A DNA stretch of 64,000 nucleotides from Prolixibacteraceae bacterium. GTDB lineage: Bacteria > Bacteroidota > Bacteroidia > Bacteroidales > Prolixibacteraceae. How positions within the stretch are numbered: the first letter of the stretch is position 1; each line of letters opens with the position of its first letter. The notes beneath the pieces were generated by a model. It was not told where the DNA came from, did not search any database, and was given only the letters and a program-made list of their open reading frames with translations. The translations under genes and the position numbers were made by a program. Location of the stretch: the NCBI GenBank assembly GCA_028377305.1, contig JAONJW010000007.1, positions 1 through 64,000 of the forward strand, written 5' to 3'. Below are positions 11,506 to 19,738 of the stretch, piece by piece.

Positions 11506-11901
11506 ATGCTAGAGCATGATACACAAAATATGCATTTTAAAACGACTTCATCGGTTCGACCCTTTGATGTAGACTCTCTTGCAGTGGGTGTAGGTGAAAT
11601 TCTATATCATAGCCATTCAAACAACCGGTATCGTTATGGTTTTTGTAGTGATTTAATGAGTGATCTATTGACCATTGATGCCCCCGAAACAGTTCTGATA
11701 ACTGGTCTTATTACCAAGCAGACGATTCGGACAGCACATATTGCGGAGATACATTGTGTGATATTGGTTCGGAACAAGACGATCCCTCAAGAGTTAATTC
11801 AGATTGCCGAAGAGTTAGATATATCTATTATCCGATCACCCTATACCATGTTTAGAGTTTGTGGACTATTGTATGGCAGAGGAGTTCAAGCAATCTATTA
11901 A
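11506..11901 (+). CDS. DRTGG-domain-like protein, hydrogenase-cluster accessory
   Basis: 131 aa; …ETVLITGLITKQTIRTAHIAEIHCVILVRNKTIPQELIQIAEELDISIIRSPYTMFRVCGLLY resembles DRTGG domains; position in hydrogenase operon. Confidence 0.65.
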   Translation: MLEHDTQNMHFKTTSSVRPFDVDSLAVGVGEILYHSHSNNRYRYGFCSDLMSDLLTIDAPETVLITGLITKQTIRTAHIAEIHCVILVRNKTIPQELIQIAEELDISIIRSPYTMFRVCGLLYGRGVQAIY

Positions 11902-11907
11902 AATCAA

Positions 11908-12333
11908 GTGGTGATGAAATATCAATTTGAGGTGGCCGGAGGAGACTTTTCTCACGCAGGATTTGTCTCTATTGAGATAAAGAAGATCATGAAACGCCTG
12001 CATCTTCCAGCAGATTTTATTCGTAAGATGTCTATTGCAAACTATGAGGCAGAGGTCAATATCATTGCCCATGCTTACGATGGGATTGTGGATGTAGAGA
12101 TTACACAAGATAAGATCACTACAACATTTACAGATCGAGGTCCTGGCATTGCATCGATTCAAGATGCCATGCAAGAGGGTTTCTCAACCGCATCGGACAA
12201 AGTGAGAGAGATGGGGTTTGGTGCGGGAATGGGACTTCCAAATATGAAGCGAAACTGCGATAGTATGGATATTCATACCAAGCAGAATGAAGGAACAATA
12301 GTCACCTTGACCTATATGGTTCCAGTAGCATAG
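11908..12333 (+). CDS. Anti-sigma/serine-kinase-like GHKL ATP-binding protein
   Basis: ANYEAEVNIIAHAYDGIVDVEI (N box), TDRGPGI (G1), GFGAGMGLPNMKRNCD (G2), RsbW-like size. GTG or internal ATG start possible. Confidence 0.8.
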   Translation: MVMKYQFEVAGGDFSHAGFVSIEIKKIMKRLHLPADFIRKMSIANYEAEVNIIAHAYDGIVDVEITQDKITTTFTDRGPGIASIQDAMQEGFSTASDKVREMGFGAGMGLPNMKRNCDSMDIHTKQNEGTIVTLTYMVPVA

Positions 12334-12360
12334 ATTGACAACATAACCAGACATAATCCA

Positions 12361-13686
12361 TTGAAAAGAGAGACGCTTCTGAAATATGTGACCGTTTCGA
12401 TTGCACATTGTCATGGGTGCACACACTGTATGCGTCATTGTCCTGTAGAGGCCATACGGATTCGAAGAGGGGTAGCCAACATTGACCATCAGAAATGTAT
12501 TCTTTGTGGTCGATGCTTAGATGACTGTGCCTATCATGCCATCTCATTGGTTACTCCTGCTGCCATAGAACAGGATGCAGATAAAATACGTTTCTTGGTT
12601 GTTCAGGAGGGTTTTTTTGGGCATTTCCCTAATGATAAACACCAAGAGGTTCGTCATGCACTTCGGACACTAGATTACCACCATATTATTGATGCACGCG
12701 ATTTTACTCGTCTCTCTACCCTATGGCGTCAACTGCACGAAATAGGCGAACAACAAAAAGATATTTCGACCCATTGTAATGTAATTAAGTCGATGGTGCT
12801 AAATGGGGAGATGGATACCGATCAAGATATTCGGTTTGTTCCAACCACCTCGGAACTGATTATTGGAGCCATTCATCTGCTTTATGAAGACCTCTCTAGG
12901 ATTCGCACCTCAATCACCATGACCACCCACTGCATGTCTGAGAATTATCATAATGGAAGTAGCAAACAGGATCTGTTTCTAGCCGACAAAACTTTACCTA
13001 CAGTCTCTTTGGTCAATGAGATACAGAAAAAGGTTTGGAAGAGAGAGGGAGACGCTGATGATAGTGTTGCTACACCACCATCGACTTCTCTGTGTAGAGA
13101 TAAAACATCGGTTTCTATTTCAGGAATTAAAGAGGTTTTAGGGTGGGTTGACAAAAATGATTTGAAGCCAGACGATTACAAACGAGACTACCACTTAGAG
13201 GGCTGTAAATATGGATGTTATAATGGTTCGTATATGACAGAATATCCGTCAATAATAGAACGACGAGAGACCAACTATTCGTCTAGATTAGATGAACGCT
13301 ATGATGAGAAGATTGAAAGGGTGATCAATTCGTTGTCTATCTACTGGGAGTCTGGCTATACAACAACTGAAACACCTAGTGAAGGCTTTCAAGAGGCACT
13401 CATTCGATCGGAAAGGGTGCGAAAGTTAATGTGTCTGCTTCCGGGCATCGATTGTGGTGTTTGTGGTGCACCAAGCTGCTTGGCTTTGGCAAAAGATATA
13501 TCTATAGGGTCCGCTAGGCTAGCACACTGTGTGCTTTTGGATTTGAAGTGGATGAAAGATCGACATGTAGGAATTGAGACCACCATGCTTCAGTTAGAGA
13601 AGATATGGGGAGATAAAGTATTACAAATGGACTGTACAAAGAAAGGAGCTAAGAATGAAATTATCGCAAATCGCAAAGAAGAATAA
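12361..13686 (+). CDS. [FeFe]-hydrogenase-like Fe-S protein with degenerate H-cluster domain
   Basis: Two N-terminal 4Fe-4S motifs (CHGCTHCMRHCP, CILCGRCLDDC); degenerate L1/L2/L3-like segments STHCNVIKS, TTHCMSENY, GCKYGCYNG; C-terminal Cys-rich motif DCGVCGAPSC. TTG start. Confidence 0.75.
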   Translation: MKRETLLKYVTVSIAHCHGCTHCMRHCPVEAIRIRRGVANIDHQKCILCGRCLDDCAYHAISLVTPAAIEQDADKIRFLVVQEGFFGHFPNDKHQEVRHALRTLDYHHIIDARDFTRLSTLWRQLHEIGEQQKDISTHCNVIKSMVLNGEMDTDQDIRFVPTTSELIIGAIHLLYEDLSRIRTSITMTTHCMSENYHNGSSKQDLFLADKTLPTVSLVNEIQKKVWKREGDADDSVATPPSTSLCRDKTSVSISGIKEVLGWVDKNDLKPDDYKRDYHLEGCKYGCYNGSYMTEYPSIIERRETNYSSRLDERYDEKIERVINSLSIYWESGYTTTETPSEGFQEALIRSERVRKLMCLLPGIDCGVCGAPSCLALAKDISIGSARLAHCVLLDLKWMKDRHVGIETTMLQLEKIWGDKVLQMDCTKKGAKNEIIANRKEE

Positions 13687-14002
13687 GCTGATCTTAAAGA
13701 ACGACCACGAGCGTTTTCATGAAGATCCTGAGATAAAGGAGTTGATAATTACTGACCTGATGAGTCATGCGATGGCTCAAGGGGATTGTGGCATGTTGTT
13801 TATCACCATTCAGGCACACCGAAACGTTTTGGCTGTAGCGCTACTAAAGGAGTTTGCAGCCATAGTAATACCTTATGATCTAGCAATCCCGGAGAATCTA
13901 TTGTTGGAGGCCAACAAACGAGAGATGCCGATATATTCTAGTTCGTTGAGCACGTATGAGCTAGTAGGACGTATCTATGAACAACTCCATTCCAAGAGAT
14001 GA
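13655..14002 (+). CDS. DRTGG-domain-like protein (second copy)
   Basis: 115 aa; KELIITDLMSHAMAQGDCGMLFITIQAHRNVLAVALLKEFAAIVIPYDLAIPENLLLEANKREMPIYSSSLSTYELVGRIY; overlaps the upstream CDS. Confidence 0.65.
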   Translation: MKLSQIAKKNKLILKNDHERFHEDPEIKELIITDLMSHAMAQGDCGMLFITIQAHRNVLAVALLKEFAAIVIPYDLAIPENLLLEANKREMPIYSSSLSTYELVGRIYEQLHSKR

Positions 14003-14706
14003 TCTATCATGGTGATCTACATATTCACACCACCCTCTCTCCATGCGGCGACTTGGAGATGACACCGGTGGGTATCGTGGAGAGAGCCAAAGCATTATCA
14101 TGGGATTTTATTGGAATCACCGATCATAATGACACACGACAAGCTCCGATTATTGCTTCGTTGGGAAGGAAGATGGGGGTGACGGTATTTGTTGGAGCTG
14201 AAATATGTAGTTCAGAAGAGATTCACCTGTTGGCTTTTGTTCCAACAGAAGAAGCTCGACTGTCGCTACAGACCTATTTAACCATACATCGAATGAAGGT
14301 AGAGAACAAGCCTTGCTATTTTGGAGATCAAGTGGTGGTCTCAAGTGACGAGCTGATTCTGGTTAACGAGAGAAACTTGCTGCTTACGGCACTCTCTCAA
14401 GATGTCTATCAAGTTACGGACTATGTTCATTCGCTGGGAGGTTTGGTTATTGCTGCACATGTAGACAGAGGGAGTTATAGTATGCTTACCTCCTTGGGAT
14501 TTATTCCGGAGGATTTGCCATTAGATGGTGTTGAATTTTATCGCGACAGGAGTCGGATTGATCTTCATAAATGGTGTTGCGTTCAGAATAGCGATGCCCA
14601 TTATTTGAAAGACATGCTACCCAATTCATGTGAATATCACATGAAGAGTTTGGACTTTGAGGGGCTTAAAGAATGTTTTCAGAATCATCAAATTCACATT
14701 AAATGA
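13999..14706 (+). CDS. PHP-domain metal-dependent phosphoesterase
   Basis: HGDLHIHTTLSPCGD, IGITDHNDTRQ, VIAAHVDR, NSDAHYL motifs; ATGA overlap with upstream gene. Confidence 0.85.
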   Translation: MIYHGDLHIHTTLSPCGDLEMTPVGIVERAKALSWDFIGITDHNDTRQAPIIASLGRKMGVTVFVGAEICSSEEIHLLAFVPTEEARLSLQTYLTIHRMKVENKPCYFGDQVVVSSDELILVNERNLLLTALSQDVYQVTDYVHSLGGLVIAAHVDRGSYSMLTSLGFIPEDLPLDGVEFYRDRSRIDLHKWCCVQNSDAHYLKDMLPNSCEYHMKSLDFEGLKECFQNHQIHIK

Positions 14707-15230
14707 AAGAGATAGCAGACCATATTATCGACCTTATTGAGAACAGTATTCGAGCCGATGCAAAACATATTGCGTTTGGCTATAAAGATGATGGTACCCT
14801 AAAGTCGTTCTGTATTAAAGACAACGGCAAAGGGATGAGTGCAGAAGAGGTCGCACAAGCCCTCGATCCATTCTATACAACCAAGCTGACTAAGAAGATT
14901 GGACTGGGACTCTCCCTGACTCGGCAGAGTGTGCTACAGAGTCATGGAAAGTTTAACATCTATTCTGCTCCCAACAAAGGCACAAAAGTGGTTTTTAGCT
15001 ATCCAAAACAAGATATAGATTGTCCTCCCAATGGAGATATTGTAAAGTGCTTTGTACAGTCAATAATGGCACATCCACAGATTGACTTTAAGCTGTCATA
15101 CCAAGAAAAAGAGAATGTACTGGTCGACACTTCCTTTCTGAGTTACGAGGAACGAATGGCCATAAGATATAGCGATCTATATGCCTATGTAAAAGAGGCC
15201 TATGTAGAGATCGACTGGAATGGATTTTAA
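14703..15230 (+). CDS. Histidine-kinase-like (GHKL) ATP-binding protein
   Basis: DLIENSIRADAKHIAFGY, KDNGKGMSAEEV, KKIGLGLSLTRQSVLQSHGKFNIYS, GTKVVFSYP; ATGA overlap with the PHP gene. Confidence 0.8.
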   Translation: MKEIADHIIDLIENSIRADAKHIAFGYKDDGTLKSFCIKDNGKGMSAEEVAQALDPFYTTKLTKKIGLGLSLTRQSVLQSHGKFNIYSAPNKGTKVVFSYPKQDIDCPPNGDIVKCFVQSIMAHPQIDFKLSYQEKENVLVDTSFLSYEERMAIRYSDLYAYVKEAYVEIDWNGF

Positions 15231-15253: not shown

Positions 15254-15643
15254 ATGACCAAGGTGAAAAACTTAGAAGAACTCGTAAAGCTTCGCAATAA
15301 ACTCAAAGACAAAATCCAAGTGCGAACCATCACAGAAGGAAGTGATCTTATTGCAAGAGTACGTGTGGCCATGGGAACTTGTGGAATTGCATCGGGAGCC
15401 AAAGAGACATTCGAAGCTCTTATTGCAGAAGCCGAACGTTTAAATATGAAGGTATTGATTACAACAACAGGTTGTATGGGAGCCTGTTATGCGGAACCTA
15501 CAGTAGAGGTGACGTTGCCTAATCAAGACCCTATTGTTTTTGGGGAGGTTGATCGCAAAAGAGCAGTAGAGATTATTAATGAATATATTATCAAAGGAAA
15601 ACTTATTGATGGTGTAGTTCCTCAGAATCACCAATCTATTTAA
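15254..15643 (+). CDS. Thioredoxin-like [2Fe-2S] ferredoxin (hydrogenase-associated)
   Basis: VAMGTCGIASGAKETFEAL…TTGCMGACYAEPTVEV 4-Cys pattern. Confidence 0.8.
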   Translation: MTKVKNLEELVKLRNKLKDKIQVRTITEGSDLIARVRVAMGTCGIASGAKETFEALIAEAERLNMKVLITTTGCMGACYAEPTVEVTLPNQDPIVFGEVDRKRAVEIINEYIIKGKLIDGVVPQNHQSI

Positions 15644-15655
15644 TCTCTAAATTCT

Positions 15656-17446
15656 ATGATACATACACACATATTGGTTTGTGGAGGTACAGGTTGTAGA
15701 GCCTCCCAAGCAAAAGAGGTGCAGGAGGAGTTGGTGAGTTTGATTAGAGATAAACATCTCAGCCAGACGGTTCAAGTTACCACTACAGGATGTTTTGGTT
15801 TCTGTGAAAAGGGACCTATTGTGAAGATAATTCCAGATCAAACGTTCTATACTCAAGTAACCCCCGAGGATGCTCGTGATATTATTGAAGAGCATATCAT
15901 TAAAGGCCGTAAAGTGGAACGCCTTCTTTATGAAGACCCTAAAACAAAGAAAAGGATCTCAGATAGTGTTCATATGAACTTCTACAAGAAACAATTGCGA
16001 ATTGCACTACGCAATTGTGGTATTGTGGACCCAGAGAATATTGATGAATATATTGCAAGAGATGGATATCAGGCATTGGGCCGAGTTCTTTCGATATACT
16101 CTCCTGACGAGGTGATTGATATCATCAAAAAGTCTGGTTTGAGAGGACGAGGAGGTGCCGGTTTTCCAACAGGAAAGAAATGGGAGATCACAAGTCAGGT
16201 AGAGGCTACACAGAAGTATGTAGTTTGTAATGCAGATGAAGGAGACCCAGGTGCTTTTATGGATCGATCGATACTAGAAGGAGATCCACACGCAGTGATT
16301 GAAGCAATGGCAATTTGTGGATATTGTATCGGGGCAAACAAAGGATTGATCTATATCCGTGCGGAATATCCTCTTGCAATTGGCAGGTTGTTGGTGGCGA
16401 TAGAACAAGCAAGGAAATATGGTCTTTTAGGAAGAGGAATCTTAGGTAACGATTTCGAGTTTGACATCGAGCTTAAATATGGTGCTGGAGCTTTTGTTTG
16501 TGGAGAGGAGACCGCACTGATTAATTCGATGGAAGGACGAAGAGGAGAACCGGTGATTAAACCGCCATTCCCAGCAGAGAAAGGATATTTCGACTGCCCT
16601 ACCAATGTGAATAATGTAGAGACTTTTGCCAATATCTGCCCTATCGTTTTGAAAGGCGCAGAGTGGTTCAGTAGTATCGGTACGGAGAAATCGAAAGGGA
16701 CTAAAGTGTTTGCTCTGGCAGGTAAGATCAATAATGTAGGTCTGATAGAGGTGCCGATGGGGACAACTTTGAGAGAGGTTATTTTTGATATCGGTGGAGG
16801 AATTAAAGGAGGAAAGAAGTTTAAGTCGGTACAGACAGGTGGTCCTTCGGGAGGTTGTTTGACAGAGAGCTCTCTGGATATGCCCATAGACTATGAAACC
16901 CTTTTAGAGGAAGGTTCGATGATGGGATCTGGAGGGATGATTGTGATGGATGAGGATGACTGTATGGTGGCCATATCGAAGTTCTATTTAGAGTTCACCC
17001 TAGATGAATCTTGTGGTAAATGTGCCCCTTGTCGTATAGGGAATAAACGTCTTTGGGAGATACTTAATAAGATGACCAAAGGAGAGGCTACAGAGAAAGA
17101 TCTAGAGAAGTTAATTGACTTGTCACACACTATTAAAGACACTTCATTGTGTGGTTTGGGACAGACATCACCGAACCCCATCTTGTCTACATTCAAGAAC
17201 TTTAAGCATGAATATTTGGGCCATGTAAGAGACAAACAGTGTGAAGCAGGACAGTGTAAGGATCTTTTACATTATACCATCGATGCTAAAATGTGTGTTG
17301 GGTGTACGGCATGTCTAAGAAATTGTCCTGTAGGAGCTATCTCGGGCGAGAAGAAGAAGCCTCACCTTATTCATCAGGATATATGTATTAAGTGTGGTAT
17401 CTGTTACGAGAAGTGTAAGTTTAACGCAATCCTTCATCAGTCATGA
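15656..17446 (+). CDS. hydB: NADH-binding flavoprotein subunit of electron-bifurcating-type [FeFe] hydrogenase (NuoF/HydB/HndC-like)
   Basis: N-terminal thioredoxin-like ferredoxin domain; GRGGAGFPTGKKWE, NADEGDPGAFMDRSILEGDPH; ESCGKCAPCRIG; C-terminal 2x4Fe-4S (CVGCTACLRNCP, CIKCGICYEKC). Confidence 0.93.
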   Translation: MIHTHILVCGGTGCRASQAKEVQEELVSLIRDKHLSQTVQVTTTGCFGFCEKGPIVKIIPDQTFYTQVTPEDARDIIEEHIIKGRKVERLLYEDPKTKKRISDSVHMNFYKKQLRIALRNCGIVDPENIDEYIARDGYQALGRVLSIYSPDEVIDIIKKSGLRGRGGAGFPTGKKWEITSQVEATQKYVVCNADEGDPGAFMDRSILEGDPHAVIEAMAICGYCIGANKGLIYIRAEYPLAIGRLLVAIEQARKYGLLGRGILGNDFEFDIELKYGAGAFVCGEETALINSMEGRRGEPVIKPPFPAEKGYFDCPTNVNNVETFANICPIVLKGAEWFSSIGTEKSKGTKVFALAGKINNVGLIEVPMGTTLREVIFDIGGGIKGGKKFKSVQTGGPSGGCLTESSLDMPIDYETLLEEGSMMGSGGMIVMDEDDCMVAISKFYLEFTLDESCGKCAPCRIGNKRLWEILNKMTKGEATEKDLEKLIDLSHTIKDTSLCGLGQTSPNPILSTFKNFKHEYLGHVRDKQCEAGQCKDLLHYTIDAKMCVGCTACLRNCPVGAISGEKKKPHLIHQDICIKCGICYEKCKFNAILHQS

Positions 17447-19224
17447 AAAAGATTCATTTAACCATAGATAATAAAGCCATAGAGGTGGCTGAAGGCACAA
17501 CCATCTTGGAGGCAGCCCAGAAGGTTGGAATCCATATCCCCGCATTGTGCCACATGAAGATGGATGATATTCATATCGAGAATCGTCCAGGGGGGTGCCG
17601 TATATGCTCGGTAGAAGTAAAAGGTAAGCGTAATTTATCGCCTGCCTGTGCCACCAAGTGTTTGGATGGCATGGAGATAAAGACCAATACTATTCGTGTG
17701 ATTCATGCGCGTAGAAATATTTTGGAGCTTATTATCTCGGATCACCCTTATGAGTGTCTCACCTGTGCCAAATCGGGACAGTGTGAATTGCAGACGATGG
17801 CACAAGATCTTGGTATTCGTGAAATCCACTTTGAGGGAGAGAAATCGACTTATAGAGAAGATTTCTCGAAAGCGATTATCCGTGATATGGATAAATGTAT
17901 TCTGTGTAGACGTTGTATTACCATGTGTAGTGACTTTCAGACGGTACATGCCCTATCGGCAGTAGAGAGAGGTTTTGAGGCGGTAGTAAGTCCTGCATTT
18001 CATATGGATTTGAATGAATCGTCATGTACTTTCTGTGGTCAATGTGTGGCTGTTTGTCCTACAGGAGCATTATCGGAAGCGGACTATTCGAAGGATGTTA
18101 TACAGGCCTTGGCCAATCCGGAATATACTGTGATTGCACAGACAGCTCCAGCAGTTAGAGCAGCACTAGGAGAGTCGTTTGGTTACCCTGTGGGTACGAG
18201 TGTGACTGGACAGATGGTTACGGCGTTGAAGAACTTGGGCTTTGATTATGTGTTCGATACTGATTTTGCTGCTGATATGACCATTATGGAGGAGTCGGCA
18301 GAGTTATTGGAACGATTAACACGACATCTTGAAGGTGATAAAACAGTTAAGCTTCCAATCTTGACATCATGTTGTCCTGCTTGGGTTCGATTTATTGAGC
18401 AGAATTTCCCTGATATGAAGGAGATTCCATCGACCACCCGTTCCCCTCAACAGATCTTCGGTGCTATAGCAAAGAGTTACTTTGCTGAGAAGATTGGTGT
18501 TCCAAGAGAAAAGTTGATTGTGGTCTCTATTATGCCTTGTGTGGCAAAGAAATATGAGTGTGAAAGAGATGAGTTTAAGGTGGATGGAGATCCAGATGTT
18601 AACTTCTCGATTACGACACGTGAGTTGGCTCGATTGATTAAGATCTCAAATATCGATTTTAAACAGTTAGAACCATCAGAATTTGATCAACCTCTAGGAG
18701 AATCGACCGGTGCGGGATTGATATTTGGAACCACAGGTGGCGTTATTGAAGCTGCAACACGTACAGCCTATGAGTTGCAAACAGGAAAGAAGTTGAAGAA
18801 GATTGACTTTGAATCATTACGAGGAATGGAAGCAATACGTAGTGCTACAGTTGATTTCAATGGGCTACCAATAAAGATTGGAATTGCCCACGGTTTAGGT
18901 CATGCTAGAAAGCTATTAGAAGAGATTCAAGAGGGTCGTTGTCACTATCACGCTATTGAGATCATGTCTTGTCCAGGAGGATGTATTGGAGGTGGAGGAC
19001 AACCGTTCCATCATAATAAAACATCTATCTTGCTAGAGAGACAAAAGGCCATCTATAGTGAAGATAAGCAGATGAAGATTAGGAAGTCTCATGAGAATGC
19101 ATCGGTGATGAAGGTGTATGAAGAGTTCTTGGGACATCCTCTGAGTGAAAAAGCGGAACATTTACTTCATACGAGTTACTTTGATAGATCATCACAGATC
19201 ACTATTGATGATAGTGAAATGTAA
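17443..19224 (+). CDS. hydA: [FeFe] hydrogenase catalytic subunit (HydA/HndD-like)
   Basis: N-terminal 2Fe-2S, His-ligated cluster and two 4Fe-4S motifs; H-cluster motifs TSCCPAW, MPCVAKKYE, MSCPGGCIGGGG all intact. ATGA overlap with hydB. Confidence 0.96.
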   Translation: MKKIHLTIDNKAIEVAEGTTILEAAQKVGIHIPALCHMKMDDIHIENRPGGCRICSVEVKGKRNLSPACATKCLDGMEIKTNTIRVIHARRNILELIISDHPYECLTCAKSGQCELQTMAQDLGIREIHFEGEKSTYREDFSKAIIRDMDKCILCRRCITMCSDFQTVHALSAVERGFEAVVSPAFHMDLNESSCTFCGQCVAVCPTGALSEADYSKDVIQALANPEYTVIAQTAPAVRAALGESFGYPVGTSVTGQMVTALKNLGFDYVFDTDFAADMTIMEESAELLERLTRHLEGDKTVKLPILTSCCPAWVRFIEQNFPDMKEIPSTTRSPQQIFGAIAKSYFAEKIGVPREKLIVVSIMPCVAKKYECERDEFKVDGDPDVNFSITTRELARLIKISNIDFKQLEPSEFDQPLGESTGAGLIFGTTGGVIEAATRTAYELQTGKKLKKIDFESLRGMEAIRSATVDFNGLPIKIGIAHGLGHARKLLEEIQEGRCHYHAIEIMSCPGGCIGGGGQPFHHNKTSILLERQKAIYSEDKQMKIRKSHENASVMKVYEEFLGHPLSEKAEHLLHTSYFDRSSQITIDDSEM

Positions 19225-19249
19225 TAGAAACGACCTAAAACAAGAGAAT

Positions 19250-19738
19250 ATGAAAACAATAAAATTATCCTCTTTTGCGATAGAGACAGTAGAAGAAGCT
19301 TGTTCAGATTTTCAATATAGAGAAGATGAGTTGATCAATATACTTCATCGCTGTCAACATAAATTGGGATATCTACCAGCAGAGGTTCAAGAGATAATTG
19401 CTCAGAAACTTCAAATGTCGGTGGCAAAGGTGTATGGTGTGGTGAGTTTCTACTCTTTCTTTTCGATGATTCCTCAAGGAAAACATCCGATCTCTATATG
19501 TATGGGAACGGCATGCTATGTGAGGGGCGCAGAGAAGTTGGTAGATGAGTTTAAACGACAATTACGTATTGATGTTGGAGAGACAACCCAAGATGGGAAC
19601 TTCTCTCTGAGCTGTTTGCGATGTGTTGGAGCTTGTGGTTTGGCCCCTATTGTGATGGTAGGTGATAAAGTGTATGGTAGGGTTTCTGCCAAGCAAGTAA
19701 AAGATATTATCTCAGAGTATCAGAAAAGCATGGTTTGA
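19250..19738 (+). CDS. hydC: NuoE/HydC/HndA-like [2Fe-2S] subunit
   Basis: ICMGTACYVRGAEKLVDEF…CLRCVGACGLAPIVMVGDKVYGRV. ATG at 19250 preferred over the 19145 track start, which overlaps hydA. Confidence 0.92.
   Translation: MKTIKLSSFAIETVEEACSDFQYREDELINILHRCQHKLGYLPAEVQEIIAQKLQMSVAKVYGVVSFYSFFSMIPQGKHPISICMGTACYVRGAEKLVDEFKRQLRIDVGETTQDGNFSLSCLRCVGACGLAPIVMVGDKVYGRVSAKQVKDIISEYQKSMV

Follow-up and report, generated by a model that had tools for sequence, protein, structure and literature searches.

The window considered here, a stretch of 64,000 nucleotides from a Prolixibacteraceae bacterium, encodes a hydrogenase-like protein with a degenerate H-domain upstream of an intact trimeric hydrogenase, and the question is what this protein is and what it may still do. 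In a preliminary description it was taken for a paralog of HydA, and the motifs quoted there were found in both proteins: TSCCPAW, MPCVAKKYE and MSCPGGCIGGGG in HydA (17443-19224), and STHCNVIKS, TTHCMSENY, EGCKYGCYNG and DCGVCGAPSC in the protein at 12361-13686. The latter comprises 441 residues, and its reading frame is uninterrupted from a TTG start and overlaps the downstream gene for DRTGG-domain protein 2 at 13655-13686. The window features located below lie, like this gene, on the + strand. The protein aligns over its whole length with intact group D HydS, holds the identical operon position and has orthologues within the genus (61-78% identical); it was classified as a degenerate group D (M2e) HydS-type protein.

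Its F-domain carries two CxxCxxCxxxC [4Fe-4S] motifs (C17-C27 and C46-C56; 12409-12528) with matches to Pfam Fer4 families and with eight of eight Cys kept. The H-domain contains an L1-like segment, STHCNVIK (12766-12789), with C139 at an H-cluster ligand position, an L2-like segment, TSITMTTHCMSEN (12907-12945), with C191 at a ligand position, and an L3-like segment, GCKYGCYNG (13201-13227), in which C282 and C286, the latter at the position of the bridging Cys, are retained in the alignment to intact HydS. The C-terminal Cx2Cx4Cx16C [4Fe-4S] motif (C365, C368, C373 and C390; 13453-13530) corresponds to that of TamHydS (PMC8163306). No PAS domain was detected by a Pfam scan of the protein. 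As for the HMM check that had been suggested with PF02906 and PF04060, the latter family was recovered (E 3.8e-9), and PF02906 gave no match in the window protein at E values up to 1 or in three genus orthologues at E values up to 10, compared with 9e-24 for an intact relative and 4e-93 for HydA of the window.

A search of 101 related genomes yielded three orthologues from the same genus (78, 62 and 61% identity); in other genera, homologues matching over their full length were 25-29% identical. The homologues from other genera, which have the loops ISxFCPA, TPCxAK and CxxxCxGG, no PAS domain and the Cx2Cx4Cx16C C-terminus known from TamHydS (PMC8163306), were assigned to the group D (M2e) putative sensory [FeFe] hydrogenases. 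When a profile of the H-domain alone, with both flanks removed, was compared with that of the intact group D H-domain, a match over 207 columns was obtained with 96.7% probability and an E value of 3.9e-10, with the four Cys in register, against 0.2-0.3% for unrelated operon proteins as controls; after masking of the Cys, the first 74 columns still matched at 84%. This profile match and the identical gene order identify the protein as an orthologue of HydS and not as a decayed copy of HydA, and its standing as the positional orthologue of a group D, TamHydS-like putative sensory [FeFe] hydrogenase is well supported. The operon position and the C-terminus, both of group D type, rule out recent paralogy to HydA, against which the H-domain profile reached only 13.5%; the label "paralog" is not supported, the protein being the orthologue of a HydS with 118 intact relatives. 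Agreement among four genomes, of which two are single-contig, and a dN/dS of about 0.07 exclude a sequencing or frameshift artefact, a possibility named in the preliminary description. A profile search of the PDB with the H-domain gave nothing meaningful, and the best PDB sequence matches of the whole protein were RnfB-type ferredoxins, reached through the FeS and Fer4 parts. Such ferredoxins share the PF04060 FeS motif and Fer4 motifs with the window protein but have no H-domain, and the window protein is not in an Rnf operon; the C-terminus, previously read as RnfB-like, bears the Cx2Cx4Cx16C signature of group C/D HydS.

The ten-gene order DRTGG1-GHKL1-HydS-DRTGG2-PHP-GHKL2-[2Fe-2S] protein (Fd)-HydB-HydA-HydC is identical in the four degenerate and nine intact loci. 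In the window these genes, identified by Pfam and operon comparison except where noted, encode a DRTGG-domain protein 1 (11506-11901; sub-threshold Pfam match, conserved operon position), a GHKL ATPase 1 with intact nucleotide-binding boxes and 44 of 48 invariant residues retained (11908-12333), and, following HydS, a DRTGG-domain protein 2 (13655-14002), a PHP-domain protein with its catalytic His/Asp (13999-14706), a second, histidine-kinase-like GHKL ATPase with its catalytic residues (14703-15230), a thioredoxin-like [2Fe-2S] protein (15254-15643), HydB (15656-17446), an intact group A HydA (17443-19224; NCBIfam FeFe_hydrog_A6, above cut-off) and the thioredoxin-like [2Fe-2S] subunit HydC (19145-19738, the true start probably lying downstream of 19145). 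Both HydG and HydA are encoded in all four genomes of the genus, which shows that the maturation pathway is available at least in part. No hidden intact HydS was found elsewhere in these four genomes (G000-G003). A second PF02906 protein, an intact group B-like [FeFe] hydrogenase of 478 residues, is present in G001-G003 (L109, L110 and L111) and was not found in the window's own genome, which is 77% complete. Outside the order, a Spirochaetales MAG (L037:8105-10284) carries DRTGG1-GHKL1-HydS with intact loops, and the module may stand alone there, since no HydABC match occurs in the 9 kb examined downstream. In a Myxococcota contig (L045:10705-12747), a group C-like H-domain and a PF04060-type motif are fused to a histidine kinase directly 3' of HydB and HydA; the L1 of this fusion reads ATACAAAV, without the usual Pro.

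Conservation within the protein is very uneven. Compared with 26 intact relatives, 18 of 18 conserved Cys are retained, including the four H-cluster ligands, and conserved columns are kept at 20 of 30 positions in the F-domain, 28 of 39 in the C-domain and 16 of 79 in the H-domain (12 of 75 when the four Cys are left out). H-domain identity between the genus and nine intact operons is 16%, against 55% among the intact operons and 57% among the genus members. The four H-domain Cys align with the four H-cluster Cys of intact group D homologues in 26 of 26 cases, and in 118 of 118 in the larger set, and they are invariant in the four genomes of the genus. Retention of all four while 13 of 54 conserved H-domain columns (or 16 of 79) are kept has a hypergeometric probability of 0.002 (0.001), and the claim that four Cys persist at cluster-ligand positions is thereby confirmed. 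The same numbers bear on whether the four Cys bind no cubane at all, the H-domain being a structural spacer and only the F-domain and C-terminal clusters and the protein-protein surfaces being of importance. L1-L3 are otherwise hardly recognizable and Pfam is blind to the domain, which favours a spacer, but with the nine intact operons as reference the Cys are kept at four of four positions versus nine of 50 other invariant positions (P about 0.002), and we regard a spacer as most improbable.

The losses were judged against group D HydS, which is the right baseline, and not against HydA. Neither the proton-transfer Cys (C299) nor the L2 Met occurs in group D (PMC8163306); these two entries in the earlier list of losses are thus ancestral absences. 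The real losses are the L2 Lys, the L1 and L2 Pro, the L3 Ala-Gly, the GE loop and the D265-like and E289-like acids. In the catalytic pocket, L1 Pro is replaced by Asn, L2 Pro by His and L2 Ala-Lys by Ser-Glu; within the genus, these changes and those in the proton path described below have reached fixation or come close to it. Among 122 proteins, the Cys of L1 is present in every one, and L1 Pro and L2 Lys, invariant in the 118 intact members, are Asn and Glu in the four genus members; L2 Pro is found in 116 of the 118. The L2 Lys corresponds to CpI Lys358, which contacts a CN ligand of [2Fe]H. Two otherwise intact HydS proteins of the order (L060 and L082) have Gln in place of the Pro that precedes the L2 Cys directly. 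Changes are also seen in the group D proton path (E252, E289, S249 and D265 in TamHydS), whose positions were assigned from the alignment pattern in relatives and not by aligning TamHydS itself. The loop G(I/V)xW....GE with its E252-like relay, whose G, W, G and E are conserved in 26 of 26 intact relatives, is deleted at about residues 241-246 (13081-13098), the E289-like residue is His or Asn, and the D265-like residue is Ser. In TamHydS, replacement of E252 or E289 leaves no more than 3% of the H2 oxidation (PMC10407848).

These replacements weigh against a complete H-cluster that still senses H2 in an unusual pocket: three positions that are Lys and Pro in 118 of 118 or 116 of 118 intact proteins are here Glu, Asn and His, and the proton path of group D is gone. 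Retention of all four H-cluster Cys including the bridging one, the occurrence of HydG in all four genomes and the tolerance of group C/D enzymes for large pocket changes (PMC8163306) speak for such a cluster, which we nevertheless hold to be quite unlikely. In place of the conserved Pro, Ala, Lys and Gly, the residues Gln82, Asn140, His190, Ser193, Glu194 and Asn288 have become fixed in the genus. Together with the bridging Cys286 they might form a new sensor site in the former [2Fe]H pocket and bind a different ligand, for example a [2Fe-2S] cluster, mononuclear iron or some gas that is not H2; this is a tentative and rather doubtful idea, but if it were true, a lineage of H2 sensors would have switched its signal and left the signalling module unchanged.

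The distribution of the rebuilt loops was examined in 122 distinct HydS-type proteins, gathered across the family and the order together with a single Spirochaetales genome. Catalytic loops are kept in 118 of them, and exactly four have the rebuilt loops CNVIK, TTHCMSEN and GCKxGC[YF]NG; these four represent all genomes of the window's genus in the set. In the family survey, HydS was present in 84 of 141 genomes, and the genus profile scored the four degenerate proteins at 867-900 bits and all others at 196 bits or lower. The degenerate form was seen beyond the genus neither in these 141 family genomes nor in 394 genomes of the order, in which motifs were checked where the sequence was retrieved. 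In 398 genomes of the phylum, an H-domain-only profile, which also misses intact HydS, detected nothing closely similar to the degenerate domain. In the genomes searched, the degeneration is confined to the window's genus within the Bacteroidales.

The pace of change was compared along the operon. On the stem branch of the genus, 4.2 substitutions per site were estimated for the H-domain, 1.6 for the F and C parts and 0.33 for HydABC, and within the genus the H-domain is still the fastest-evolving part of the operon, for which reason part of its change may reflect relaxed constraint. Against the nearest species, its dN/dS is 0.066, an approximate value because dS is near saturation, and purifying selection on the H-domain is well supported. 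These rates describe a burst on the genus stem, after which the domain was under constraint and yet went on changing quickly. The genes for DRTGG1, DRTGG2, PHP and GHKL2 (within 11506-15230) evolve, relative to HydABC, at approximately twice the rate found among intact loci, and GHKL1 and the C-terminal domain of HydS are less affected. The fast H-domain with by far the longest stem branch and the fast accessory genes speak for a gene in decay, under relaxed selection once H2 sensing had become useless and now losing its function. With the dN/dS of 0.066, however, frames are open in four species, residues have been newly fixed (the invariant genus-specific loops are TSIT-x-TTHCMSEN and GCKxGC) with all 18 Cys in place, and the catalytic motifs of the neighbours are retained; decay is hardly probable.

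Structure models were obtained by AlphaFold with alignments of three and six rows, at pLDDT values of 37 and 51, which are too low to place the four H-domain Cys. Foldseek with the pLDDT-51 model ranked [FeFe] hydrogenases at the top, but at a TM score of 0.26 and 20 A rmsd, and this result is circular and weak because the input alignment itself contained hydrogenases.

The closest known system is TamHydS of group D (PMC8163306, PMC10407848, PMC13104023), which has the same arrangement of two [4Fe-4S] motifs, H-domain and Cx2Cx4Cx16C without PAS, and whose gene likewise precedes those of a trimeric hydrogenase of group A. The window protein keeps all Cys of its intact group D relatives but differs in its rebuilt L1, L2 and L3, in the loss of the L2 Lys and proton path and in an H-domain below Pfam detection. 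TmHydS of group C (PMC10055695) also counts as putatively sensory and has a cluster domain at its C-terminus, but it retains the H-cluster, and the window protein lacks a PAS domain. The C-terminal cluster of TamHydS is unresponsive to H2 (PMC13104023). Near the corresponding cluster, the conserved acids of group D (Glu in LAED and the Asp before the last Cys) are replaced in the genus by Lys at residue 378 and His or Gln at residue 389; these changes could alter the potential of the cluster, and the site there may have changed too.

Nar1, NARF and CIAO3 (PMC12621388, PMC8924675) are derived from hydrogenases and keep the cubane Cys but lack [2Fe]H; in the window protein the Cys are kept as well, and the absence of [2Fe]H is predicted. 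The three are eukaryotic CIA factors or nuclear proteins of separate origin, unlike the window protein with its bacterial operon and HydABC; the earlier comparison with Nar1 is fair as a functional analogy and does not extend to relationship. The clusters of Nar1 are labile to O2 and may serve to sense it (PMC12621388). In a Nar1-like role, the window protein would be no sensor and would scaffold or carry clusters, either for HydABC or for further Fe-S proteins. In favour of this, Nar1 is hydrogenase-like, binds clusters without [2Fe]H and may hold a [2Fe-2S] cluster in the cavity once occupied by [2Fe]H (PMC12621388). Its operon partners GHKL, DRTGG and PHP are of signalling type and are not Fe-S assembly factors, and intact relatives with normal loops occupy the same operon place, which leaves such a role with a slim chance. 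No C-terminal Cx2Cx4Cx16C domain is known in Nar1, NARF or CIAO3.

In our judgement, the protein is probably a pseudo-hydrogenase, the genus version of HydS, with four [4Fe-4S] sites kept, without [2Fe]H or H2 turnover, and acting as a redox- or Fe-S-responsive regulator of HydABC. The evolutionary part of this account is well supported by orthology, retention of the Cys, purifying selection and an unchanged operon; the cluster content, the loss of H2 chemistry, the regulatory target and the signal we infer. On the branch to the genus, the H-domain was remodelled, the residues holding the [2Fe]H subsite and passing protons being replaced and new ones fixed, with the Cys ligands all staying in place. 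The protein is predicted to contain four [4Fe-4S] clusters, namely two in the F-domain, the former [4Fe-4S]H cubane and one at the C-terminus, and to lack the [2Fe]H unit. H2 turnover would be absent, with no place for [2Fe]H and no proton path. The protein would then serve as a signaller responsive to redox state or cluster integrity and still drive the GHKL/DRTGG/PHP module, which adjoins and probably regulates the bifurcating-type hydrogenase HydABC. The preliminary picture of a conserved, probably cluster-binding and non-H2-evolving protein amid GHKL and DRTGG genes is supported.

H2 sensing by sensory hydrogenases has little direct physiological proof (PMC8924675), and literature searches found nothing on this DRTGG module or on hydrogenase pseudoenzymes of group D. 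A lineage that has the whole module and the cluster ligands but has lost H2 chemistry would be a natural test of what "sensor hydrogenases" sense, and should the protein still mediate regulation of the operon, signalling can do without H2 turnover. By the evidence of the literature searched, the protein would be a bacterial counterpart to Nar1/NARF, a hydrogenase that lost its H2 function and gained another role.
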